Shown: in pieces, positions 2,385-13,635 of the stretch | Numbering within the stretch: the stretch's first letter is position 1 | Layout of the letters: the number at the start of each line of letters is the position of its first letter | NCBI RefSeq assembly: GCF_000381005.1 | Contig: NZ_KB908396.1 | Coordinates: forward strand, 1 to 51,122 | DNA from: Selenomonas bovis DSM 23594 | GTDB lineage: Bacteria; Bacillota; Negativicutes; Selenomonadales; Selenomonadaceae | DNA: 51,122 nucleotides | Direction: 5' to 3' | The notes under the pieces: model-generated | What the model saw: the letters and a program-made list of their open reading frames with translations, nothing else | The model's database searches: none | What the model was told of the DNA's origin: nothing | Position numbers and translations under genes: made by a program

Positions 2385-4622
2385 TCACTCCAGAAACTCC
2401 CTGGCCTCAAGAAGCATCAATCCATCAACGATGACGCCCTTCTTCGTCCTATGCCTGGTAAAGCCCCGAAACTCCATAGCAGAATAGAAATCCGTCGTGC
2501 TGCGTACATACTCGCCAGCACTAGACGCATAGGCTCGGTAAGTGCTGTACAGCTCACCGGACTTTGCATGGCAGTTTACTCCGACCATGCAGCACTCAGA
2601 CAAGAAATGTCCCAGCCAATCATTGCTCTCGCGATAAGAAGCCACCGCGCTTTCCACCGTTGAAGGTCGCTTCAGGCGGAAACCATTCTGGATGACTTTC
2701 TGCGCCCCCTCAATCACCCAGGAAAGCACTGCGGGCCCAGCTTTTTCTGCCAGATACTCCGCGTAATTCTTGATATCGCTGTTCCCTTCGATCACAGCGT
2801 CAAACGGAATGATCAGCAGTCGCCGCCAGGTTCCCGGATCATTGGCGCCGACGCGCGGCAGATGGTTCGTGTACAGGATGAGCGTATGACTCGGCGTGAA
2901 GTGGAACGGGTCTTTGTACTTCTTCTCAGCCTGGATTTCATCCGTGGAACAAAGCTGCTTGATGATTGCGGTATTCAGCCGCATGCCCTCATCCAGTTCC
3001 GCCGCTATGAGCATTCTCTTTCCTTTGGCCTCGGCAAGCTCCGGTTTGTAGTTTCTCTTGCAGCCGACCGTCAGCGTGTCCGCCGAGATATTGCCACTGT
3101 AGGTTCCAAGCACCCTCGATATGGTGTTCCAGAATGTTGATTTCCCGTTGCGCCCTTCGCCATATGCGATAATGAGGGCTTCCACGAACACCTTTCCCAC
3201 CGCCGCGAGGCCGACCACCTGCTGCACATAGTCCATGAGCTCGATGTCTCCGCAGAAGAAGGTACCGATGGCGTCCTGCCAGATCTGCTTTCCCTGATCG
3301 CCGGGCGAGACGGACGTAACCTTGGTCGCATAATCCTCGGGCCGGTGCTCTCTTTTTCCTGCCAATCCCAAACGCAAATCATAAGTGCCGTCAGGCGTGT
3401 TCAGCAGGAAAGCATCATGATCAAGATCCGCCACCCGGATTTCAAGCATCGGCCTTGCGGCCTGCAGTGCAGAAAGCACATACCGCATGTCGCGCCGTTT
3501 CTCGACAAACGTCAGATAAGCATGGGCAGAAAGATACGCGGCATAGGCTTTTCTCCTGACATCCGTGATTTCTTTTTCCAGCGTCTTTCCACCCTTGGAA
3601 ACCTTTTCCTTGGCCACTCCTGCCCCAGTCAGCGCATCGGCTGCTTTTTTCACCGCATCCTGCGCGTCTGCCAGCTGCAGGTCCAAAAACTCCTCCACCG
3701 CTCCAACGGCCTGCGCCCTGGATTCATTCCAGGTTGTGCCGTCATAGCGGAGATAATCGGTCGCTGGCGTGTATTTCAGCTCGCTCCCATATTCGCGCGC
3801 CAGCACCTTTGCCTGACCGATGTCGCTGTAGTCATCTGGCTTCAGCGACATACGCTGAAACTCATATTCCTCGGGCGGCACATATCCTGGCTGCGCCTGC
3901 ACCCTCCTCGCAAACTTTGCGGCGCTGCGCCATATCGTGCCGAGCTCATCGTCGGAAAGCCTGGGCTCGCACTCCGCTGCCCGTTCAAGGAATATGATAT
4001 GTGCCCGCTCCGTCACACCGTAGCGCTTGACGAGTCTGCCCGCAAACTGCGACATGGTGTTGTTGCGCTGCCCCTGAGGAATCGATTTGCCTTGTTCCTC
4101 TTGGCAAAATAAATCGGCAATCGTCTTTTTCCCATCCTGCCAAAGGCTGGATTTTGCATAACTGCCATAAAGAAACCGGGCGGCATCCAGTGCAGCACCA
4201 TCGAAGAAAGGAAAGCGTCGCTGGATGCTTTGTTTCAGCGCTGTATAAGTGTCGGCATCTCTCTGCTCCGGAATCATAAAATAAACATGGAACCTTGGTC
4301 TGGCACTTTTTCCATGCTTCTCTTTCATGTGATTGCGCGACGGAACCACAGCCATCGCTACATCGGGAAGCATTGCCATCAGCTTTTCTCCTGTTACCCA
4401 CTGCGCCGGATCGTCGGTATGGCTGTTGTCGCAATCCATGACCACTACATTAGATGCTAAAAACTTCTCCCGGCCCCGGCAGCAGCCTTCATATTTTGCG
4501 CAAACATGATCGTAAACAGCAGCGGATTGCAAAGCATTTCCATCGGTGATTTCTACTCGATTGGGATACAGGACATTTCGTTCATTTCCCGTGCAGTTCG
4601 CGGTATAGACTGTAAACTTCAT
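2385..4622 (-). CDS. Phage primase/SF3 helicase (D5/P4-type C-terminus)
   Basis: This 745-aa protein has two parts. Residues of roughly 1-190 look like an archaeo-eukaryotic primase: VVVMDCDNSH, then SRNH and RPRFHVYF carry the spaced acidic and histidine residues. Residues of about 380-640 are a D5/P4-type superfamily 3 helicase with Walker A GEGRNGKST, a B motif in MLIAAELDEG and sensor residues in LILYTNHLPRV. An alanine- and lysine-rich helical linker joins them. It probably loads at the phage origin, unwinds DNA and makes primers. The gene overlaps the upstream DUF4406 gene by ATGA. A 106-bp palindrome lies just downstream. Confidence 0.88.
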   Translation of the reverse strand: MKFTVYTANCTGNERNVLYPNRVEITDGNALQSAAVYDHVCAKYEGCCRGREKFLASNVVVMDCDNSHTDDPAQWVTGEKLMAMLPDVAMAVVPSRNHMKEKHGKSARPRFHVYFMIPEQRDADTYTALKQSIQRRFPFFDGAALDAARFLYGSYAKSSLWQDGKKTIADLFCQEEQGKSIPQGQRNNTMSQFAGRLVKRYGVTERAHIIFLERAAECEPRLSDDELGTIWRSAAKFARRVQAQPGYVPPEEYEFQRMSLKPDDYSDIGQAKVLAREYGSELKYTPATDYLRYDGTTWNESRAQAVGAVEEFLDLQLADAQDAVKKAADALTGAGVAKEKVSKGGKTLEKEITDVRRKAYAAYLSAHAYLTFVEKRRDMRYVLSALQAARPMLEIRVADLDHDAFLLNTPDGTYDLRLGLAGKREHRPEDYATKVTSVSPGDQGKQIWQDAIGTFFCGDIELMDYVQQVVGLAAVGKVFVEALIIAYGEGRNGKSTFWNTISRVLGTYSGNISADTLTVGCKRNYKPELAEAKGKRMLIAAELDEGMRLNTAIIKQLCSTDEIQAEKKYKDPFHFTPSHTLILYTNHLPRVGANDPGTWRRLLIIPFDAVIEGNSDIKNYAEYLAEKAGPAVLSWVIEGAQKVIQNGFRLKRPSTVESAVASYRESNDWLGHFLSECCMVGVNCHAKSGELYSTYRAYASSAGEYVRSTTDFYSAMEFRGFTRHRTKKGVIVDGLMLLEAREFLE

Positions 4623-5038
4623 CTTTGTTCCTCCTCGAAGTTGTCATTAAAAAATCGCAGTCTGTAATTTTTCCATCTGGCCCGTCGAATTTCTGCCTCC
4701 ATACCAGGAGATATAGTATTGCCAAACACCAGCACTTCACGGCAAAAATTCATAAGCACATTGCCAAAATACAGTCCCATAGCCCGCTCCTCCGGCTTCC
4801 TATCATCAAGAAACTGTGGAAAAAGCAAGTGCGGGGCAATGGGGATATATCCCTGCTCAAAAGCAAAGCGAGAATACCTCCTGGCATTTTTGATATTTTC
4901 TAAGACATTCCCGGAAAACGGCGAACATATATACGCCAAAGGGTGGTACGTATTCGCCGTTCCTTTTTTTGCCTGTATCCGAGATATTGCCTGCTGCGGC
5001 GTAGGGTCCGCATAATGCTCATCATTAAATAAATCCAT
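4619..5038 (-). CDS. DUF4406-like protein (nucleoside deoxyribosyltransferase fold)
   Basis: The 139-aa protein contains YICSPFSGN near residue 32, ARRYSRFAFEQGYIPIAPH and an acidic SPGMEAEI segment. These match the DUF4406 group, which shares the fold of nucleoside 2-deoxyribosyltransferases. Related phage proteins may act on nucleotide pools, but no substrate can be read here. A strong ribosome site (AAGGAG) precedes the ATG. Directly upstream lies a copy of the phage's 36-bp repeated motif (5067-5102), so this gene probably begins its own transcript continuing into the primase/helicase. Confidence 0.75.
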   Translation of the reverse strand: MDLFNDEHYADPTPQQAISRIQAKKGTANTYHPLAYICSPFSGNVLENIKNARRYSRFAFEQGYIPIAPHLLFPQFLDDRKPEERAMGLYFGNVLMNFCREVLVFGNTISPGMEAEIRRARWKNYRLRFFNDNFEEEQR

Positions 5039-5066: not shown

Positions 5067-5102
5067 TACTTACCTATGGAGAAAAACTTTGTATTTGAGC
5101 AA
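5067..5102 (-). promoter_or_regulatory. Phage 36-bp motif, copy 1
   Basis: Read leftwards, the site is TTGCTCAA, 11 bases, TTCTCCA, 5 bases, AAGTA. It lies in the 69-base gap between the polymerase gene and the DUF4406 gene, about 30 bases before the latter's start codon. Position and repetition suggest a promoter or operator for a phage-encoded factor. No normal -10 box is present. Confidence 0.7.
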
Positions 5103-5107
5103 TAGGA

Positions 5108-7096
5108 TTAATCTTTTTGATAAAATTCACATTCGTATCCGTCTGCCCGGAGCAACAATCCTTCGGCCCATGGCGGTGTCCGCCCCATCTGCTCGCAGAT
5201 GGCATCGACGCTGACATTTCTGTCGCACTCGATAATCAGTTCATCATGGACATGGCCGACGATGGCACAGCACTGCAATGTCTGCATGGCATAGCAGAGA
5301 ATGTCCCGGCTGATGCCCTGGACGATGTTTTCCACGAACTTCGGGCCGTAGCTCTCCAGCCGTTCCCACTTCTTCGTTGCACCGATGCCTTCATAAGTGA
5401 CGGACTCGCCGCCGAAGCGGTTCTCTCCCATCCGAGGCTTTACGTAGGAAAGCCGCCGTCCGCTGGGAAGTTGGATAAACAGCATGCCGCTTTGGTACAG
5501 GAAGCGGATGCAGCCGACCTGCATGGGGATCTGTTCCTTGATGGCTGTTTTCACGGCGGCATCCACCTGCCACCAAAAATCGACGATATGCGGATTGGCC
5601 GACCGCCAGGATTGCACCAGAGGATACAGCTCATTTTCCGTAAGGCCCATTTCAAGAGCGCCCATGGCCTTCAGCGCACCGATGGAACCGCCATAGCCAA
5701 GCGCCAGTTCTGCGATTTTCCCTTTTTGCCGAAGATGCGCATTACGGCCATGTTTTTCCACAGGAACGCCGAACATGAAGCTGGCCGAGGCGCAATAGAT
5801 ATCCCCATTCCTGGCAAAGACATCTGAGCGCCATGTTTCTCCTGCCAACCACGATAGTACTCTGGCTTCAATCGCCGAAAAGTCTGATACGACAAATTTC
5901 ATCCCTTTCCGGGGCACAAAGGCCGTACGGATCAGCTGGGAAAGGACATCGGGGATGGAATCATACAGGAGTTTCAAGGCTTCATAATTTCCCTGTCGTA
6001 CCAATTCCCGAGCTTCTGCGAGATCCGGCAGATGATTCTGTGGCAGATTTTGCAGCTGGATATGACGACCGGCAAATCGCCCAGTCCGATTGGCCCCATA
6101 GAATTGGAACATGCCTCTGGCCCGACTGTCCTCGCAGGCCGTCATTTCCATGGCCTGGTATTTTTTGACCGAGGATTTGGCCAGCTTCTGCCGGAGTAGC
6201 AGTACGCTGCGAAACGGTTCTTCTGCCGTCTTCAGCAGCTCCTGTACCTGCTTCTTGCCCAAAGAATCGGTCTTCATCCCGTGCCGTTCCAACCAGCCAA
6301 TCATCTGGATGACGGAGTTCGGATTCTCTAGGCCCGTCTTTTCCTTCAGCATAGCCATCAGGCTTTCCCGGCTGCGGGCATCGATGACGATGGCATTTTC
6401 AGCCAATGTCCGGTCAATGGCAATGCCCCGGTCGTTGATTTCCTGGTCGAGATGATATTCATCCCATACCTGCTGCGGTACGGGATACTTCTTCAACCTC
6501 TCCTGGATGGCCATTTCCACTTCCACATCCCGTTTGTTATAGGACTTGAATAAGGTCCATTTGTCTAAGTCATGCTGAGGAAGGTTTCTTGTCCTGCCGC
6601 CATTCGATTTAGTTTCCTTGCAAGGAACGCAGAAATAGCGGATCAGGTCTTTGCCTTCCTTCAGCTTCTGGCTGTCCAGATTCAGCACGGTCCCTGCGCC
6701 TTCCAGAGAAAGAGGCAGTCCCATATAGGCCGACCAGATCATGGAGCATTTCCATCCCGCCGGATTGAGGAACCTGGCACAGTCCTGAGAAAGCGGATGA
6801 TGATCATGAAATGGGTCCAGACTTCTCCCCAGATCACGCAGATACCGCGACAAACAGACACGTTCAAAACTGGCATTGAACGCCCACTTGGTGACAGATT
6901 CATCGGTCAGGGCATCCAGGATATCATCCGGGATGCTCTCTCCCTGCGCCAGGTCAACGACCTGCACTTCGCCCCCGTCCACGGCATAACCGAAGAGGAG
7001 GACTTCAAAGGCTGGCGATTCTGCATACTTGTACACGCCGCATTTCGCCAGATTGACATCGCTGAATGTCTCAATGTCGATACTGATGGTTTTCAT
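5108..7096 (-). CDS. Phage family A DNA polymerase
   Basis: This 662-aa polymerase has an N-terminal 3'-5' exonuclease domain opening with SIDIETFSD (Exo I Asp-Glu) and a polymerase domain with motif A (VVSDFSAIEARVLSW), motif B (RQKGKIAELALGYGG) and motif C (GHVHDEL). It is shorter than bacterial Pol I because the 5'-3' exonuclease domain is absent, as usual for phage enzymes. I place the start at MKTISIDIE: GAGGTG lies about 8 bases upstream, while a GTG three codons earlier overlaps that ribosome site. It is the replicative polymerase of the phage module, beside the ssDNA-binding and helicase proteins. Confidence 0.93.
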   Translation of the reverse strand: MKTISIDIETFSDVNLAKCGVYKYAESPAFEVLLFGYAVDGGEVQVVDLAQGESIPDDILDALTDESVTKWAFNASFERVCLSRYLRDLGRSLDPFHDHHPLSQDCARFLNPAGWKCSMIWSAYMGLPLSLEGAGTVLNLDSQKLKEGKDLIRYFCVPCKETKSNGGRTRNLPQHDLDKWTLFKSYNKRDVEVEMAIQERLKKYPVPQQVWDEYHLDQEINDRGIAIDRTLAENAIVIDARSRESLMAMLKEKTGLENPNSVIQMIGWLERHGMKTDSLGKKQVQELLKTAEEPFRSVLLLRQKLAKSSVKKYQAMEMTACEDSRARGMFQFYGANRTGRFAGRHIQLQNLPQNHLPDLAEARELVRQGNYEALKLLYDSIPDVLSQLIRTAFVPRKGMKFVVSDFSAIEARVLSWLAGETWRSDVFARNGDIYCASASFMFGVPVEKHGRNAHLRQKGKIAELALGYGGSIGALKAMGALEMGLTENELYPLVQSWRSANPHIVDFWWQVDAAVKTAIKEQIPMQVGCIRFLYQSGMLFIQLPSGRRLSYVKPRMGENRFGGESVTYEGIGATKKWERLESYGPKFVENIVQGISRDILCYAMQTLQCCAIVGHVHDELIIECDRNVSVDAICEQMGRTPPWAEGLLLRADGYECEFYQKD

Positions 7097-7153
7097 ACGC
7101 TTCACCTCAAAAACGACGAGGCATAAAGCCCCGTCGCCACCATGGAATAGTAC

Positions 7154-7354: not shown

Positions 7355-7921
7355 TTAGGCCAGAAAATCATCATCAGCAGCCGTAGCGAAATCATCTTCC
7401 GCACGCGGTCTGCCGCCAAGGGGCTCGCCGTCGCGGATTTTCTGGAGGTTGTTCAGGCCGCAGGCGATGCCTTTATTTCCGTTGCTATTGAAGGCATAGA
7501 AGTTGATGGACGCACGCCCATAGACGCCGGAATAAACTTCAGAACGTTCCAGGATATGCTGGCAGTCGGCATCGACGATGCCCGGCTTGGTCGCCGAATT
7601 GGCATTGACGAAGAAGCTGTCCTTATAGGCATCATCGCCCGGGCGTTCCAGGTCGCCGTCACGGAGCGGCGTCTTGATGGCTTCAAGAGCTGGTACGACA
7701 CGGCCATTGCCCTTGAGCTTGCTTTCGCCTTCTTTGTAGGCAGCCTTGATCGCAGCACGAATCTTTTCTACGGTCTTCGTATCCGACTTAGGAATGATCA
7801 GGCTGACGCTGTACTTCGGCGTACCACCATTGATGGACTTCGATTCCCAGACGTTGGCATAAGACCATCTGGTATTGACTCCGGTAATCACTTTGCACGG
7901 ATTGACATAATTCTTGGACAT
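7355..7921 (-). CDS. DUF2815 protein, probable phage ssDNA-binding protein
   Basis: The 188-aa protein matches DUF2815, considered a phage single-strand DNA-binding family with an OB-like fold. Recognisable parts are VITGVNTRWSYANVWES near the N-terminus, KYSVSLIIPKSDT, RPGDDAYKD, the aromatic SGVYGRASINFYAFN, and an acidic C-terminal tail (AEDDFATAADDDFLA) like the partner-binding tails of SSB proteins. I start at MSKNYVNPC because GGAGG lies about 8 bases before it. It follows DUF2800 by 13 bases, the usual order in such modules, and probably coats DNA for the polymerase and DUF2800 nuclease. Confidence 0.85.
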   Translation of the reverse strand: MSKNYVNPCKVITGVNTRWSYANVWESKSINGGTPKYSVSLIIPKSDTKTVEKIRAAIKAAYKEGESKLKGNGRVVPALEAIKTPLRDGDLERPGDDAYKDSFFVNANSATKPGIVDADCQHILERSEVYSGVYGRASINFYAFNSNGNKGIACGLNNLQKIRDGEPLGGRPRAEDDFATAADDDFLA

Positions 7922-7934
7922 AACAAGTTCCTCC

Positions 7935-9062
7935 TTATTTTTCATCATTGAATTCATCTGCTGCGATGTACATGGCCGGACGCTTATCCGATGCCGGCAC
8001 CAGGACCGGCTTGCCCTGCGGCTTTTCCACTAAACCTGACAGCAGTTCTTCAAACCGTTTCTTGCCGAGCTGTTTCGTCATCGCTGTGATGCCGAGCAGC
8101 TTCTTTTCATATGGGTCGAAGCCTGCTTCTTCCACTTTGGCGGCGACTGCTTCTTCGCTTACGTAGCGGCGGTTTGAGCGGCCTTCGACCAGTTTCCATC
8201 CGTCCCACTGCTTGCCGGACAGGGCCTGCTGCAAAGCGTACTCTTTGACGTCACTGGCCCAGTTCACCAGTTCATCGGCCTTCGAAAGGACGGCTTCGAT
8301 TTCTTCATCCTGCAACGTGGATGGGACGGCGAAATCATACTGAGCCAGTTCCAGATTGTATTCAGCCCTCTTGCGGCAAGTCGCCTTGATCTTGCAGAAA
8401 CGGCAATGGTCGCCAGCCTTGTACTCTCCTTCTCCCTTCGCCGCCAGTTCTGCGGTAGGCTTCAGCACTGTTTCGGCCCACTGGAGCAGTTCTTCCTTGC
8501 TCATGGTGCAGGTGCTGACGTTGTCCCGGCGGGGCTGGAAGATAGTCATGGACACCCGGCGGATATCATAGATGCCATCAAACAGGTTCAGCGCACCGAG
8601 AGCATAACACAGCATCTGCGGATTCCTCTCGGCATCCACCAGAACTCCCAAGCCGTGCTTGTAATCGATGACCGTCAGGGTATCGTCAGCCACAATGATG
8701 CAGTCGCCTGTTCCAAATCCGCCTGGCACCCACTTGGAAAAGTCCAGCCGCTGTTCCACCATGATCATCGGGTCCTTGCAGGATGCTTTGGCAGAGGCCA
8801 GAGATTCCATGACGAACTGTGCGTATTCATCGGTGCATTCCGCCATCTCTTCATCAAAGTAGGTAAGAGATTCCGTCGGGGCTTCCAGCTTCTGTCCCAG
8901 CGCCGTCTTCACCTTGAATTCGCAGAGCGTATGCGCCTCCGTCCCCTGCCGAGCGAACTCGCTCGGTGTATCCGGAATCTTGGCGCATTCCTGTGCGGAC
9001 GGCGGACAAACCAGCCAGCGATAGCTAGACGACGCTGACAGTACGGCGTGTTTATCCGGCAT
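7935..9062 (-). CDS. DUF2800 protein, RecB/Cas4-like phage nuclease
   Basis: The 375-aa protein is a DUF2800 member of the PD-(D/E)XK superfamily. GTEAHTLCEFK, GTGDCIIVADDTLTVIDYKHG (Asp and the D-x-K pair) and a cysteine set C-x-x-C-x(5)-C in HCRFCKIKATCRK resemble the iron-sulfur nuclease arrangement of Cas4/AddB-type enzymes. The start MPDKHAVLSAS has GGAGG upstream at good spacing, and the gene overlaps the upstream gene by 11 bases. It likely processes DNA ends for phage recombination together with DUF2815. Confidence 0.85.
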   Translation of the reverse strand: MPDKHAVLSASSSYRWLVCPPSAQECAKIPDTPSEFARQGTEAHTLCEFKVKTALGQKLEAPTESLTYFDEEMAECTDEYAQFVMESLASAKASCKDPMIMVEQRLDFSKWVPGGFGTGDCIIVADDTLTVIDYKHGLGVLVDAERNPQMLCYALGALNLFDGIYDIRRVSMTIFQPRRDNVSTCTMSKEELLQWAETVLKPTAELAAKGEGEYKAGDHCRFCKIKATCRKRAEYNLELAQYDFAVPSTLQDEEIEAVLSKADELVNWASDVKEYALQQALSGKQWDGWKLVEGRSNRRYVSEEAVAAKVEEAGFDPYEKKLLGITAMTKQLGKKRFEELLSGLVEKPQGKPVLVPASDKRPAMYIAADEFNDEK

Positions 9063-9372
9063 GGCCAATCACCTCCAGCTCCTTCAAGAACGCTTCATAC
9101 TGCGCCGCATCAATGCTGGACAGCTTGTCCGCTCCGTACTTCTGGATCAGGCTGCGAACTTCTTCCGTGAATCCCTGACGAGCCTTATCAGCGGCCACCT
9201 TGCGGACTTCTTCCAATGTCAGCTGTGGCGTTTGCTTGTTGCTGGATGCATGGACTTCGCTGCCGTTTTCCTTTTTCGCCATTCGATTCAGCTGATCCGC
9301 TGCATGACAGATGGCGTCTGCAGCCGTGTGTAGTAATTGTGCGATTTCCTTTACTGTCTCTTCATTTGTCAC
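9052..9372 (-). CDS. Conserved small phage protein, 106 aa
   Basis: The gene starts with GTG inside the end of the 54-aa gene upstream and overlaps DUF2800 at its other end. The protein has an N-terminal helical part (AQLLHTAADAICHAADQLNRMAKK) and a C-terminal part with TLEEVRKVAADKARQGF and VRSLIQKYGADKLSSID, which resembles a short family placed before DUF2800 in many Firmicute phages. Databases often label that family with an unrelated rRNA-biogenesis name. The C-terminus could be a small DNA-end or protein-binding module, but the function is unknown. Confidence 0.75.
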   Translation of the reverse strand: MTNEETVKEIAQLLHTAADAICHAADQLNRMAKKENGSEVHASSNKQTPQLTLEEVRKVAADKARQGFTEEVRSLIQKYGADKLSSIDAAQYEAFLKELEVIGHAG

Positions 9373-9526
9373 TAATTGTCTCTCCTTCCAATGGAAAATG
9401 ATTCATGGCAAAGAGAAATAACGTCCTTGCCATCCTGGCGGATACCTGACTAATGGCATGAAGAATCTGGATTTCTTCCGCCATATTGCGCATGGCAATG
9501 TCGATATCTAGATCGTTTTTGTCCAT
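9362..9526 (-). CDS. First gene of the leftward phage operon, 54 aa, unknown
   Basis: This short gene begins MDKNDLDIDIAMRNMAEE and has an AAAGGAG ribosome site at good distance. Its stop lies inside the next gene, whose GTG start is eight codons-worth of overlap away in another frame, so coupling is likely. The protein is helical with two methionine-rich stretches and no recognised motif. Two copies of the 36-bp motif precede it (9564-9599 and 9642-9677), marking it as the entry of the leftward transcript. Confidence 0.65.
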   Translation of the reverse strand: MDKNDLDIDIAMRNMAEEIQILHAISQVSARMARTLFLFAMNHFPLEGETISDK

Positions 9527-9563: not shown

Positions 9564-9599
9564 TACTTCCCTTTGGAGAAGGATTCTGATTTTGAGCAA
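9564..9599 (-). promoter_or_regulatory. Phage 36-bp motif, copy 2
   Basis: TTGCTCAA-N11-TTCTCCA-N5-AAGTA read leftwards, about 40 bases before the first leftward gene. The spacing is identical to the other copies while the N stretches differ, which argues for selection on the fixed blocks. Confidence 0.7.
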
Positions 9600-9641
9600 G
9601 CCTTTGGATAATTTTTTCAAGCTGCTCGGAATCGCTTCTCT

Positions 9642-9677
9642 TACTTCCTAATGGAGAACTATCCTATGATTGAGCAA
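9642..9677 (-). promoter_or_regulatory. Phage 36-bp motif, copy 3
   Basis: Same blocks and spacing as copy 2, lying 78 bases further upstream in the same direction. Its TTGCTCAA end touches the base of the terminator hairpin at 9676-9718. Confidence 0.7.
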
Positions 9678-9718
9678 AAGCCGCAGGTCTCTCCCACCAA
9701 GAAGAGCCTGCGGCTTTT
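9676..9718. terminator. Bidirectional terminator-like hairpin in the divergent control region
   Basis: A perfect 12-bp stem (AAAAGCCGCAGG with CCTGCGGCTTTT) encloses a 19-base loop and ends in a T-run on either strand. It lies between the leftward motif copies 2-3 and the rightward copy 4, so it may insulate the two phage operons from each other. Confidence 0.7.
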
Positions 9719-9739
9719 ATTGAAGTATTCCATTTTTCT

Positions 9740-9775
9740 TTGCTCAAAGAGCTCTGCTTTCTCCATAAGAAAGTA
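9740..9775 (+). promoter_or_regulatory. Phage 36-bp motif, copy 4 (rightward)
   Basis: The motif reads TTGCTCAA-N11-TTCTCCA-N5-AAGTA on the forward strand, opposite to the other three copies, and faces the recombination module. Downstream, an inverted repeat (GAGGTGAG with CTCACCTC, about 9775-9804) lies between the motif and the start codon at 9832 and could form a leader hairpin. Confidence 0.7.
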
Positions 9776-9831: not shown

Positions 9832-10047
9832 ATGGACAACCTCACCCCAAAACCACCTGATCTCTACTACACTACCGAACGCCTGCAAAGCGAATTATGC
9901 TTTCATATGGCGCAACGCATCGCCAGAGCTATGCTGGCTAATCACCTCATCAGTAAGAAAGAATTTCACATTCTCTCCAATATCAATCGCGAAACTTTTC
10001 CTCCCCTATTTGCGGAAATACTGCCAAAAGGACTTGAAATATCCTAG
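9832..10047 (+). CDS. Small helper protein of the recombination module, 71 aa
   Basis: The 71-aa protein starts MDNLTPKPPDLYYTTERL and ends with a segment NHLISKKEFHILSNINRETF that resembles the short SHOCT-like proteins found directly before large serine recombinases in Firmicute elements. TTAGGAG precedes the start at good spacing. It is the first rightward gene after motif copy 4, with the recombinase gene 39 bases downstream. A role in controlling recombinase direction or expression is plausible from position only. Confidence 0.65.
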   Translation: MDNLTPKPPDLYYTTERLQSELCFHMAQRIARAMLANHLISKKEFHILSNINRETFPPLFAEILPKGLEIS

Positions 10048-10086: not shown

Positions 10087-11649
10087 TTGAAGAAGGTAAC
10101 AAAAATTGCGGAATCCCCATCTTCATTGAAGAGCAAGAAAAAAATCAGGGTTACTGCTTACTGCCGTGTCTCTACAAGTTCTGACGCACAGCTTGAAAGC
10201 CTTGACGCACAAAAGATTCATTATGAGAACTACATCAACAACCGTGATGATTGGAAATTTGCGGGCATCTATTATGATGAAGGCATCACGGGTACGAAAA
10301 AAGAAAAACGCCCAGAGCTATTACGGCTCGTGGACGACTGCAAAGCTGGCAAGATTGATTTCATTGTAACGAAATCAATCAGCCGATTCAGTAGAAATAC
10401 TACAGACTGTCTGGAAATCGTCAGGGATTTACTCGCCCTGCATATTCCCATCTACTTTGAAAAAGAAAACATCAATACCGGCTCTATGGAAAGCGAGCTC
10501 TTTTTATCCCTGCTTTCCACCCTGGCTGAAAACGAATCTGTATCGATTGCAGAAAATATCAAGTGGTCCATACAGAAACGGTTCGAGACTGGCACATTCA
10601 AAGTGTGCTCTTCTCCCTATGGCTATGATTGGGACGGAAAGCAGCTGATTGTCAATCAGGGACAAGCAGCCGTTGTGAAAAAAATCTTTGCGATGCTTCT
10701 ATCCGGAAAAAGCACACAGGCGATCGCCAATGCTTTAAACGAACGTAACGTTCCATCAAAGCGAAGCAGGCACTGGACCTCAACCACCATTCGCAACATG
10801 ATAACCAATGAAAAATACGTTGGTGACTGTCTGTTCCAAAAAACATACTCGGATTCTCATTTCCGACGTCATAACAATCATGGCGAAATGACACAATACC
10901 TGATCAAAGATCATCATCCAGCAATCATCCGACGCGAAGATTTCGAGAACGCACAAAAGTTAATCCTACAGCGAGCCAGCGAAAAAGGCGTGGTACGAGG
11001 AAGCGAAAAATATCAGAATCGTTATGTATTCTCGGGTAAAGTAATCTGTGGCGAATGCGGCAGCGCGTTCAAGCGTCGGATACACAACTCCAACGGGCGA
11101 AAATACATAGCCTGGTGCTGCACCACTCATCTCAAAAATAAAAATAAATGCCACATGCTTTTTATTCGCGACGAGGTCTTAAAAAAGGCTTTTATCATCA
11201 TGATGAATAAGCTGATATGTTTTCATCAAACCATCTTGATCCCTTATCTGCAAGCGTTAAAAAGAAATCCGGATGATGGTTCACTGAACAGGATGCAGAA
11301 AATCCATACGCTAATTGCTCAGAACGCTGAAAAAAGGGAAACGTTAGCGAAACTTTTGTCGCAAGGTGTGATTGGTCCTGTCATCTACAATAAAGGATTA
11401 AACGAACTCCTTTCCCAATACGATACGTATCAAAAGGAGATGAATGCTTTAAAGCATTCCGTTTCTGACAGTATGAATCATGTACCAGAAACCACGAGGC
11501 TTTTGCGCTTTGCTGAAAAATCCTCACCGTTAACAGCATTCGATGAAACACTCTTTGAACAATTCGTGGACTCCATCCTCATTCGTTCTCGCGACGAAAT
11601 CTGCTTCGTGTTAAAATGCGGCCTTACCCTGACGGAAAGGAGGCAATGA
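10087..11649 (+). CDS. Large serine recombinase 1
   Basis: This 520-aa site-specific recombinase has the resolvase catalytic domain at residues about 20-165 (YCRVSTSSDAQ, catalytic Ser29; DEGITGTK; KSISRFSRNT), the Recombinase DNA-binding domain at about 180-290, a zinc ribbon (CGECGSAF then a CC/C set) and a C-terminal coiled-coil-like helix. Length fits the large serine integrase family. The start is TTG, supported by AAGGAG 8 bases upstream. It stands first in a three-gene recombination set, so either it or the second large recombinase is the phage integrase; the pair may act together. Confidence 0.92.
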   Translation: MKKVTKIAESPSSLKSKKKIRVTAYCRVSTSSDAQLESLDAQKIHYENYINNRDDWKFAGIYYDEGITGTKKEKRPELLRLVDDCKAGKIDFIVTKSISRFSRNTTDCLEIVRDLLALHIPIYFEKENINTGSMESELFLSLLSTLAENESVSIAENIKWSIQKRFETGTFKVCSSPYGYDWDGKQLIVNQGQAAVVKKIFAMLLSGKSTQAIANALNERNVPSKRSRHWTSTTIRNMITNEKYVGDCLFQKTYSDSHFRRHNNHGEMTQYLIKDHHPAIIRREDFENAQKLILQRASEKGVVRGSEKYQNRYVFSGKVICGECGSAFKRRIHNSNGRKYIAWCCTTHLKNKNKCHMLFIRDEVLKKAFIIMMNKLICFHQTILIPYLQALKRNPDDGSLNRMQKIHTLIAQNAEKRETLAKLLSQGVIGPVIYNKGLNELLSQYDTYQKEMNALKHSVSDSMNHVPETTRLLRFAEKSSPLTAFDETLFEQFVDSILIRSRDEICFVLKCGLTLTERRQ

Positions 11650-11650
11650 T

Positions 11651-12082
11651 ATGGGACATACACCTTATGGATATACCATAAAAAACGGCAAAGCAGTCAT
11701 TAACGAAGAACAGTCTGAGCAAATCAAACGGCTCTATAAAAACTATCTTTCCGGCATGTCACTGAAAAAAGCTGCCGCTGAAGCTGGAATGGAAACATAT
11801 CACTGCTCGGCCAAACGGCTGATGCAGAATAAACACTATCTTGGAGATAACTTCTATCCTGCTATCATAGATAAGGACACATTTGATAAGGCTTCTGCGG
11901 AATTCCTGCGACGTGCCATTTTGCTGGGGAGATTGCATCGCAAAGCAAAGGTAAAGCCATCATCCGCACCAACTTCCTTTACAATGGCCAAAATTGTCAA
12001 ACAGTATAAAGATCCGAAGTTGCAGGCTGAATATCTTTACAGCCTGATTGAAAGCGAGGTTTACGAATGGCAACTGTCATGA
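11651..12082 (+). CDS. Recombinase-like protein lacking the catalytic domain
   Basis: The 143-aa protein begins [21 protein letters not shown] and corresponds to the Recombinase DNA-binding domain (PYGY...AVIN, then [19 protein letters not shown] and a [16 protein letters not shown] segment). It has no resolvase domain and no catalytic serine. An AGGAGG site lies before its ATG, one base after recombinase 1, and it overlaps recombinase 2 by 16 bases. It is therefore an intact gene and not a frameshift remnant. It may be an accessory DNA-binding or directionality partner. Confidence 0.8.
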
Positions 12083-13635
12083 TCATTCCAGCTAAAAAAC
12101 AGATGGGCAATACCATAAAAAAGCCGGAAGAAAAAAAGCTGCGCGTTGCCGCCTACTGCCGCGTCAGCACAGATTCTGATGAACAGGAAACCAGCTATGA
12201 AACGCAGGTTTCTCACTACAAAGAATATATCCACAATCATCCTGAATGGGTCCTTGCCGGCATTTTCGCCGATGACGGCATTTCAGGCACAAACACCAAA
12301 AAGCGTGAAGAATTTAATCGCATGATTAGCGAATGCATGGCCGGAAATATCGATATGGTCATCACAAAATCCATCAGTCGATTTGCTCGCAACACCCTGG
12401 ACTGCTTAAAGTATATACGAAAATTGAAAGATAAGAACATCCCGGTCTTCTTCGAAAAAGAAAGCATCAACACCATGGATGCTAAAGGCGAAGTATTGAT
12501 TACCATCATGGCGAGTCTCGCCCAGCAGGAATCACAATCACTTTCTCAGAATGTGAAGCTCGGCCTTCAGTATCGCTACCAGCAAGGGAAAGTGCAAATC
12601 AACCACAACCATTTTTTAGGTTACACGAAAGACGAAAAAGGTAATCTCATCATTGATCCTGAACAAGCGGAAGTCGTTAAGCGGATTTATCGAGAATACC
12701 TGGAAGGATACAGCACAAAAAAAATTGCACAACATTTGGAGAAAGACGGTGTCCTTACTGGTGCCGGTAAAACGAAATGGTACGAAAGCAGCGTCAACAA
12801 AATCCTGCGAAATGAAAAATATATGGGAGACGCGCTATTACAGAAAACTTATACGACTGATTTTTTGACAAAAACGCGCGTCAAGAATAGCGGCATCGTT
12901 CCTCAATACTATGTAGAAAATGACCACGAGGCCATTATTCCCAAAGATATTTTTATGCAAGTCCAGGCCGAGCTGGTCCGCCGCCGCGTTGTTCATACCA
13001 GCCCTTCTGGGAAACGGCGTAATTTTTCCAGCAACAACTGCTTTTCTCAGATTGTCTACTGCGGTGAATGCGGCGATCTTTACCGGCGCGTCCATTGGAA
13101 CAATCACGGCTGCAAATCTATCGTGTGGCGCTGCATTACAAGACTAGAGCCATCTGCGGCAAATACAACCTGCACGAATCGCACGGTAAATGAGGCGCTG
13201 CTCAAGGAAATTTCTATCAAAGCAATGAATGAAATTCTCTTGGACAGCAATTCCTTCATTCAGAAGATGCAGGAAAATCTGGCCAAAGCCATTGCTCAAT
13301 CTGGCACGCCTTCCCCAGCAGTCATCCAGAAGCGTCTGGAAGAATTACAACAAGAGCTCATCGCAAAAACGAATAGACGCCAAGCCTACGATGCCATCGC
13401 CAATGAAATTTTCCGTTTACGGGAGCAAAAAGAAAAAGCCGAAGCAAATCTGCGCGGCCAGAAAGAAATCTTGGACCGCATCAAAGAATTGCAGGAATTC
13501 ATCAAAGAGCAGTCATCCAATCTGACGGAATTTGATGAATCGCTGGTACGAAAACTCATCAGAAGCATTCAAGTATTTCCAGACCACTTTGCGATTAAAT
13601 TCAAGTCCGGCATAAGCGTAGACATAAACGAATAG
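12067..13635 (+). CDS. Large serine recombinase 2
   Basis: This 522-aa recombinase shows the catalytic domain at residues about 25-170 ([12 protein letters not shown], catalytic Ser34; [18 protein letters not shown]), the Recombinase domain ([18 protein letters not shown]), a zinc ribbon ([10 protein letters not shown]) and a long coiled-coil region (residues about 400-490). It resembles recombinase 1 in layout but is clearly divergent. The ATG lies inside the preceding gene. The gene ends about 130 bases before the broken abiEii gene, the usual place of an attachment site, so this is the best candidate for the integrase. Confidence 0.92.

Follow-up and report, generated by a model that had tools for sequence, protein, structure and literature searches.

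A two-block promoter-like element and its putative sigma-like partner, the phrog_13787 protein, in Ca. Heliusvirales-type phages

The four copies of a 36-bp motif in a prophage of Selenomonas bovis DSM 23594 are, as far as sequence comparison can tell, one version of a promoter-like two-block element found in many Ca. Heliusvirales-type phages, with the general form block A (8 nt)-N11-block B (TCCA/GTGG). We consider it quite probable that a sigma-like specificity factor encoded by the phage, a protein of the phrog_13787 family, uses this element as its promoter; no experiment supports this, and both transcription and RNA polymerase binding are inferred. The interpretation gives a proposed function to a phage protein family so far of unknown role, and likely promoters to the recombinase and replication genes of a widespread gut-phage group. 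The window denotes here the whole stretch of DNA analysed, 51,122 nucleotides of contig NZ_KB908396.1 (C18).

Two-block sites in the window

The pattern TTGCTCAA-N11-TTCTCCA-N5-AAGTA, described in a preliminary account as four identically spaced copies, was matched exactly at all four positions. With up to three mismatches allowed, these four are the only matches in the window (none in 100 dinucleotide shuffles) and also the only ones in the 2.69-Mb host genome, where a reversed control pattern gave none; a random spread across the chromosome, which would have spoken against a regulatory role, can thus be dismissed. The sites are as follows.

5067..5102, minus strand: two-block site, 28 nt from the start codon of the DUF7768 (nucleoside 2-deoxyribosyltransferase-like, NDT)/D5 primase-helicase operon
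9564..9599, minus strand: two-block site, proximal to the small ORF/phrog_408/DUF2800/SSB/polA operon
9642..9677, minus strand: second, tandem two-block site ahead of the phrog_408/DUF2800/SSB/polA replication operon, retained in the diverged relative L007
9740..9775, plus strand: two-block site ahead of the SHOCT_2 gene and the serine recombinase genes

The genes around them were assigned as below.

2385..4622, minus strand: D5-type primase-helicase (Pfam, PHROGs)
4619..5038, minus strand: DUF7768/nucleoside 2-deoxyribosyltransferase-like protein, first gene past the 5067 site (Pfam, PHROGs)
5108..7105, minus strand: family A DNA polymerase (Pfam, PHROGs)
7355..7957, minus strand: Enc34-type ssDNA-binding protein, PF10991, DUF2815 (Pfam, PHROGs)
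7935..9068, minus strand: DUF2800 PD-(D/E)XK exonuclease (Pfam, PHROGs)
9052..9372, minus strand: phrog_408 protein, early gene of the replication operon (E 2.7e-25)
9362..9526, minus strand: small ORF of 54 aa, first gene past the 9564 site (from translation)
9832..10047, plus strand: SHOCT_2 protein, first gene past the 9740 site (E 5.2e-13)
10087..13635, plus strand: two large serine recombinases (10087-11649 and 12067-13635) and a small recombinase-like ORF (11651-12082)

All four copies are directed into the operon downstream. The earlier placement of the copies ahead of replication and recombination genes stands, except that the gene taken for DUF4406 is DUF7768/NDT-like by both Pfam and PHROGs. 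The 9564 copy is the counterpart of the site found 3' of the sigma-like gene in relatives, and many related phages carry a second site at the place corresponding to the 5067 copy, about 4.3-4.7 kb past the first. A divergent recombinase-side site is also present in the host-family genome G044 (10446, minus strand). AAGTA has a GARGG extension in three of the four window copies, and likewise in the element of many relatives. The diverged relative L007 retains the four copies, with 31/32, 27/28 and 20/20 identical bases in block A, block B and AAGTA, respectively; the spacers drift, with 26/44 identical bases in N11 and 16/20 in N5.

The copies had been described as something other than standard promoters, and scans with the sigma-70 consensus agree with that description. 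No such promoter was found between positions 9300 and 10100 (1.3 expected in shuffles), and the only one between 4900 and 5300 (0.7 expected) is on the strand opposite to the 5067 site; block B itself differs from TATAAT. An element lying this close to genes could also act as an RNA or leader signal, such as an antitermination site, a riboswitch or a translational control, and the proximal copies do stand 28, 37 and 56 nt ahead of start codons, with a short inverted repeat 3' of the 9740 copy. However, no Rfam family matched between 4900 and 10200 at gathering scores, the spacing is fixed whereas the spacer sequence is freer, and block A tracks a DNA-binding helix (see below), and we regard an RNA signal as extremely improbable.

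Between the divergent sites, at 9664-9720, there is an inverted repeat (GCCGCAGG...CCTGCGGC) flanked by A/T runs, which may be an insulator between the two operons.

The replication module of the window is of the Ca. Heliusvirales phage type. Passages of PMC9226167 give DUF2800, DUF2815, polA, VRR-NUC and SNF2 as the core of Ca. Heliusviridae/Heliusvirales, and these replication genes are all present, the window VRR_NUC lying under the Pfam cut-off with a PHROG endonuclease match at E 1.6e-30. Record PV036425 and others are likewise annotated with Ca. Heliusvirales-type core genes. Of the core structural genes (terL, portal, protease and capsid), a portal gene was recognised by Pfam on each of C37 and C45 and the rest only by eye, all on contigs of this genome not joined to the window. 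The window begins, at 1 to about 76 on the minus strand, with what looks by eye like the start of a DUF1492/phrog_36-like activator gene (MNAKEFFQRNYYLEQRVNSRLRRLS...), which the contig end truncates and which may encode the late-gene regulator of the prophage.

The element in related phages

Upstream of phrog_408, related phages show the same architecture with a different block A, and in the related loci examined the element is mostly found directly 3' of the gene for a phrog_13787 protein of about 164-165 aa, hereafter called the factor. A relative of the window genome's factor was found in nine phage records, and in all eight that were fetched (H26 was not) the factor gene stands just ahead of the genes leading the replication module; in PV036423, the next annotated genes past the factor are drawn on the opposite strand.

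An alignment search of IMG/VR gave 72 loci. With 14 others added and two dropped (L163, E 3e-7, and L094, which is contig C33 of the window genome itself), the count is 84 loci with 72 distinct stretches downstream of the factor gene. In 66 of the 72, the element exceeded the 99th percentile of the scores of 2461 random stretches taken from these loci, with a median of 35.5 bits downstream of factor genes versus -13.2 in the random stretches; the scoring matrix was trained on those same stretches, and 66/72 is not a held-out figure. Between the factor gene's stop codon and block A, the median distance is 60 nt (range -20 to 119, n=69). As for the stretches below the threshold, L040, L041, L043 and L044 contain a diverged version, GTACTTAW with TGTCCT, twice per locus; in L122, the factor gene is displaced and two sites are found elsewhere in the locus on the other strand; and in L127 a factor gene is present with no site found in the locus.

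Since block A varies among phages, the exact window pattern occurs in only three contigs across IMG/VR. A scan of 189 host-family genomes with up to three mismatches gave matches in 41 genomes, and the reversed control in 21; most of the three-mismatch matches are therefore due to chance. By eye, only the matches of G005, G009 and G018, the last with two sites at a distance of 4.3 kb, and perhaps those of G015 appear phage-like.

Many phages possess a second site, and the available sequences support the conclusion that the sites of one phage share the same block A. We examined 44 phages with at least 4.95 kb downstream, using block B alone at +3.9 to +4.9 kb and a score above 12; L040, L041, L043, L044, L122, L127 and L161 were left out. 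A second site exceeded the threshold in 27 of the 44 phages (18 distinct), with a background of 5 in 221 one-kb stretches. In 16 of the 18 distinct cases (25 of all 27), its block A and that of the first site differ by no more than 1 nt, whereas 10,000 shuffles of the 18 gave a mean of 4.5 and a maximum of 11 agreements. The two remaining cases are L123, which differs by 2 nt, and L143, with TCGGCCAA at the first site and TTGTACGA, a word of another class, at the second; L143 may be the product of recent recombination, its second promoter no longer suited to its factor. No second site passed the threshold in the other 17 of the 44 phages, including eight of the ten with TCGGCCAN, and a weaker second site with the same block A occurs in two of the 17 (L155 and L157). 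The second site of L087 and L088 falls after the polA stop and ahead of the NDT start, like the 5067 copy of the window. The diverged L040-L045 group has a second site in all six loci, with the same words in L041 and L042.

In loci of Streptococcus/Lachnospiraceae type (L046-L064), another conserved block stands before phrog_408, CCGTCAGAT...CTCCCGTGG and also CCGTCAGAT...CTCCCGTGGCTACNAGGTAGAGGGC. A loose pattern applied to six of these loci found the block once in four and a clear second copy in none; no sigma-like gene adjoins the CCGTCAGAT block in the four for which upstream ORFs were listed (L047, L049, L052 and L055).

The phrog_13787 protein and its recognition helix

All 47 aligned members match the profile of phrog_13787, a family annotated as "unknown function"; the protein of the window genome matches it at E 2.2e-22 over residues 18-163. 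The proteins have an N-terminal four-cysteine domain and a C-terminal helix-turn-helix resembling sigma region 4. The cysteines C47, C57, C61 and C64 are invariant in 47/47 members, and zinc binding is our guess. Similarity to sigma region 4 is weak but consistent: Sigma70_r4_2 matches 17 of the 47 at E up to 1 (best 8.9e-5), and five of six proteins show C-terminal matches to sigma models that lie under the curated cut-offs; the window genome's factor exceeds a Pfam cut-off for HTH_23 only and for no sigma model. For residues 91-164, the predicted fold gives weak sigma factor matches with VIA (Z 5 to 6), and the VIA alignments of the whole model likewise cover mostly these residues. Foldseek found no match to the predicted model below E 0.001, and the best solved relatives by sequence profile are NarL-type HTH domains. 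The model of the N-terminal half has no PDB match, which is not evidence for a new fold.

The 47 members match 53 Pfam families at E up to 1, and the 25 most frequent of these do not include sigma region 2. Promoter opening would consequently come from elsewhere or from an unrecognised domain, and the data leave room for a distant or replaced region 2. S73, D75 and D91 are nearly invariant, and by eye the SLDxxxxD...D stretch looks like the finger of sigma region 3.2; Sigma70_r3 is matched by 2/47 members (best E 0.042). In sigma-70, R584 and E585 at the start of the recognition helix contact the -35 box. At the matching place, as aligned by eye, the family has a variable pair, [QR][KRTNS].

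When block A was tabulated by the core of this helix, eight classes were distinguished. The table has 52 rows after deduplication; L122, L127, L161 and L090 (helix TSTF, unclear block A) were left out, and L040 and L041, misplaced by the automatic alignment, were moved by 7 nt.

QRTF/QKTF helix: YYGYTCAA-like block A, 10/10 within 2 letters of CCGCTCAA
RTTF helix: TCGTCAAA, 11/12, with one TCGTCCAA
RSTY helix: TCGTCCAA, 4/4
RNTF/RNTY helix: TCGGCCAN, 12/12
QSAV helix: CTGTTCAR, 3/3
SKAV helix: TTGTACGA, 5/5
QKAV/QKGV helix: GTACTTAW, 4/4
RSTF helix: TGGACCAC, 2/2

Block B ACCTCCAGTGG is found with five helix classes, always beside the block A of that class. In partial Mantel tests (n=63 deduplicated, without L122, L127 and L161), block A correlates with the helix when the N-terminus is held constant (partial r 0.40, 0/5000 permutations) and only weakly with the N-terminus given the helix (0.16, 26/5000). 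Block B correlates with the N-terminus given the helix (0.67, 0/5000) and gives -0.18 with the helix given the N-terminus; this link between block B and the N-terminus may reflect common descent alone. Kinship among phages can inflate such permutation tests.

The dependence of block A on the recognition helix and the pairing of site and factor are both supported by sequence comparison, and natural swaps bear out the former. L087 and L088 are 95% identical in the N-terminus and 50% in the helix region; their block B is identical, and block A is CTGTTCAA in L087 versus TCGGCCAA in L088, at both promoters. Compared with the window genome's factor, L084 and L172 each have 58/89 identical residues in the N-terminus, with 25/39 and 12/37, respectively, in the helix region. 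Only L084 agrees with the window genome's factor in helix class and in the kind of block A, which is CCGTTCAA in L084 and TCGTCAAA in L172. Helix and DNA word form an evolutionary record of co-change across eight classes, in which promoter specificity is predictable from the helix.

As a held-out test, a family scan of the 189 host-family genomes gave 24 matches in 20 genomes. Two of these (the window genome's own and G018) were already known, and 17 of the 22 new ones were readable; L177, L186 and L194 yielded no ORF, and L189 and L190 were read in a wrong frame. An adjacent site above 4.3 bits was found for four of the five readable close members and for three of the 12 distant ones. The predicted block A occurs directly downstream in L172 (TCGTCAAA), L175 (CTGCTCAA) and L178 (TCGGCCAT); the genome of L175, G005, had previously been met through another site. 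L179, whose helix allows no class prediction, carries TGGACCAC. For L176 (G044, helix RTTL, treated as RTTF class), the predicted word is not adjacent. A search of four genomes for TCGTCAAA-N13-YTCCA with up to one mismatch returned 33 matches against 25 for the reversed control, and therefore only the four perfect matches were used. Two of them are in G001, near the factor gene on its contig; the other two are in G044, 34-38 kb from the factor gene and again on the same contig as that gene. Among the distant members, L182, L184, L185, L188 and L192 have GTGACCA or GTGTCCA words ahead of TGTCC, and nothing clear was seen in the remainder.

It is conceivable that another phage or host protein reads the sites and that the phrog_13787 gene is merely their neighbour. 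The window genome's factor gene does not adjoin its sites and L127 has a factor without a nearby site, as such an explanation would allow. On the other hand, differences in block A accompany differences in the helix, the displaced factors of L122 and G044 still match distant sites, and a host reader hardly explains the pair L087/L088, both assigned to Oscillospiraceae. We consider mere neighbourhood very unlikely, and pairing of the sites with the phrog_13787 factor remains the preferred reading.

Four distant factors from host-family genomes (L182, L184, L185 and L188) have SK-type helices followed by GTGACCA[AT]-N11-NTGTCC words; this group is probably a further class of the code.

The factor of the window genome and the proposed mechanism

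The preliminary description took the copies for sites of a regulator belonging to the phage, be it an activator, a repressor or a sigma-like factor, which it could not identify in the window. The comparison favours a sigma-like factor, a phrog_13787-family protein encoded on contig C33, and the general interpretation is supported, with binding and transcription inferred in the absence of data. The window genome has one strong family member (C33, 13121-13615; E 1.6e-22). The next match, at 4.9e-6, is in a frame of 384 aa, which is also where sigma region 4 has its best match; the family profile also finds matches in 12 of 14 control genomes, and weak matches mean little. A protein of the L043 type used as query had no match in the window genome, and it was the family search that gave C33. 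The helix core of the C33 protein is QRTF, a class with YYGYTCAA-like block A, which TTGCTCAA of the window fits, being identical to block A of L012 with the same helix core.

Contig C33 also carries tail-like genes (by eye), a holin gene and an ABC-3C gene. It shares an overlap of 284 identical bp with C37, a contig with a portal gene (Pfam) and with genes that by eye are terminase- and capsid-like. No overlap joins C37 to C18, and the same genome contains a further prophage (C32) and another portal contig (C45); the assembly alone therefore permits two options. Genome G044 presents a comparable prophage on a single contig. Three recombinase-like genes (two by Pfam), with a minus-strand site ahead of them, are accompanied by phrog_408-, DUF2800-, SSB- and polA-like genes (by eye), a degenerate third site and then the NDT site. 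Primase, helicase and DUF1492 protein genes come onward, then late genes, holin and a convergent factor gene, with two repressor-like genes (by eye) divergent to the latter. This gene order equals C18, C37, C33. Synteny with G044 and the uniqueness of the match, rather than the assembly, favour assignment of the C33 protein to the prophage of the window. Two very similar terminase-portal-capsid contigs, L168 (C37) and L169 (C45), were noted in this one genome; a block apparently common to two prophages may have broken the assembly.

In the mechanism that we propose, the C-terminal helix-turn-helix of the factor would read block A (TTGCTCAA here) at the place of the -35 box, the N-terminal four-cysteine domain or a host sigma would act on block B (TTCTCCA-NNGG) at the -10 place, and transcription would start close to AAGTA. 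By the matrix, the centres of block A and of the best-conserved stretch of block B (TCCAGTGG) are about 22 bp apart; for -35 and -10 boxes with a 17-bp spacer the distance is 23 bp. In the prophage of the window, the C33 protein would turn on the recombinase (excision/integration) and replication operons in one step, as part of an inferred cascade from host sigma to the phrog_13787 factor and on to a DUF1492-type activator for late genes. The repressor-like genes of G044 suggest, without proof, a chain from repressor to sigma-like factor, then to recombinases and replication, and finally to the DUF1492 activator and late genes. Joint activation of excision and replication by one factor would offer a handle for controlled induction in gut-phage research.

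The main competitor is a phrog_13787 protein that is not a sigma factor but a two-domain DNA-binding activator or repressor, recruiting or blocking the host sigma-A holoenzyme in the manner of MotA/AsiA. The lack of sigma region 2 among the listed Pfam families, an HTH profile also near NarL/LuxR, and the filing of region-4-like proteins of the same phages (DUF1492/phrog_36 relatives) as transcription regulators would all suit such a protein. It accounts less well for a block B that is unlike the sigma-70 -10 box and varies with the factor's N-terminus instead of staying constant, for the absence of a right-strand consensus promoter around the sites, and for the near equality of the block A-block B and -35/-10 distances. 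We judge this alternative rather unlikely, with the caveat that its share of the probability overlaps with that of the sigma-like factor, our best explanation, which itself allows host sigma a role at block B.

Several known systems are comparable. According to the respective sources, phages 7-11 and phiEco32 encode a sigma-subunit-like protein (PMC8948821) and Xpf of PBSX has sigma2 and sigma4 (PMC10141391). As in these systems, the case proposed here would combine a small sigma-like phage protein with a phage promoter class and control of phage genes; in contrast to them, phrog_13787 lacks sigma2 among the listed Pfam matches and has a four-cysteine N-terminus with no PDB match. For T4, passages of PMC2988021 describe how a phage factor, MotA, reads the MotA box in place of the -35 box, how AsiA enables MotA by remodelling host region 4, and how middle promoters retain the host -10 box. 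A phage factor acting on a phage-specific word at the -35 place would be common to both cases. However, the block at the -10 place is phage-specific here and the proposed reader is itself region-4-like; a retained host -10 box, as in T4-type appropriation, was not seen at the window sites. SigO/RsoA of Bacillus subtilis, in which sigma domains are on separate proteins (passages of PMC10141391), provides a parallel for a region-4-only factor that could need a partner.

Phage sigma factors with their own promoters are thus already known; an unrecognised region 2 and modular helix exchange would be new. Only tentatively, and with more doubt than confidence, can one go further to a previously undescribed class of initiation factor, in which region 4 is joined to an unrelated four-cysteine domain that stands in for region 2 at the -10 place, phages exchange helices as modules and their promoters follow, and each lineage has a private promoter language. 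In the open-access literature, excluding subscription papers and preprints, we recognised no paper on the factor, its promoters or the helix code, judging by titles and the beginnings of abstracts; the passages of PMC9226167 on sigma factors, promoters and transcription describe no transcription factor or promoter.

The DUF1492/phrog_36 late activators, which we take to be of the ArpU/RinA type, resemble the factor in their region-4-like HTH and are encoded past the helicase gene in L007 and G044; as proteins they are distinct from it, encoded at a different locus. The DUF1492-like protein of L007 was considered as the reader of the sites and rejected: its only match in the window's own genome (E up to 0.01) is on C32, which has none of the sites by the loose pattern, and this protein is likely a late activator. 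The second prophage on C32 (L069) has polA-, primase-, NDT- and SNF2-like genes by eye. It also encodes, at 10159-10854, a 231-aa protein whose end is HTH-like and which matches no Pfam family at E up to 0.01. On C33, the gene at 11405-12652 (L081) matches CTD11 of ABC-three component systems. ABC-3C-like genes divergent to the sigma-like gene recur in several phages, on C33 and, by eye, upstream of the factor gene in L114, L130, L138, L145 and L164.
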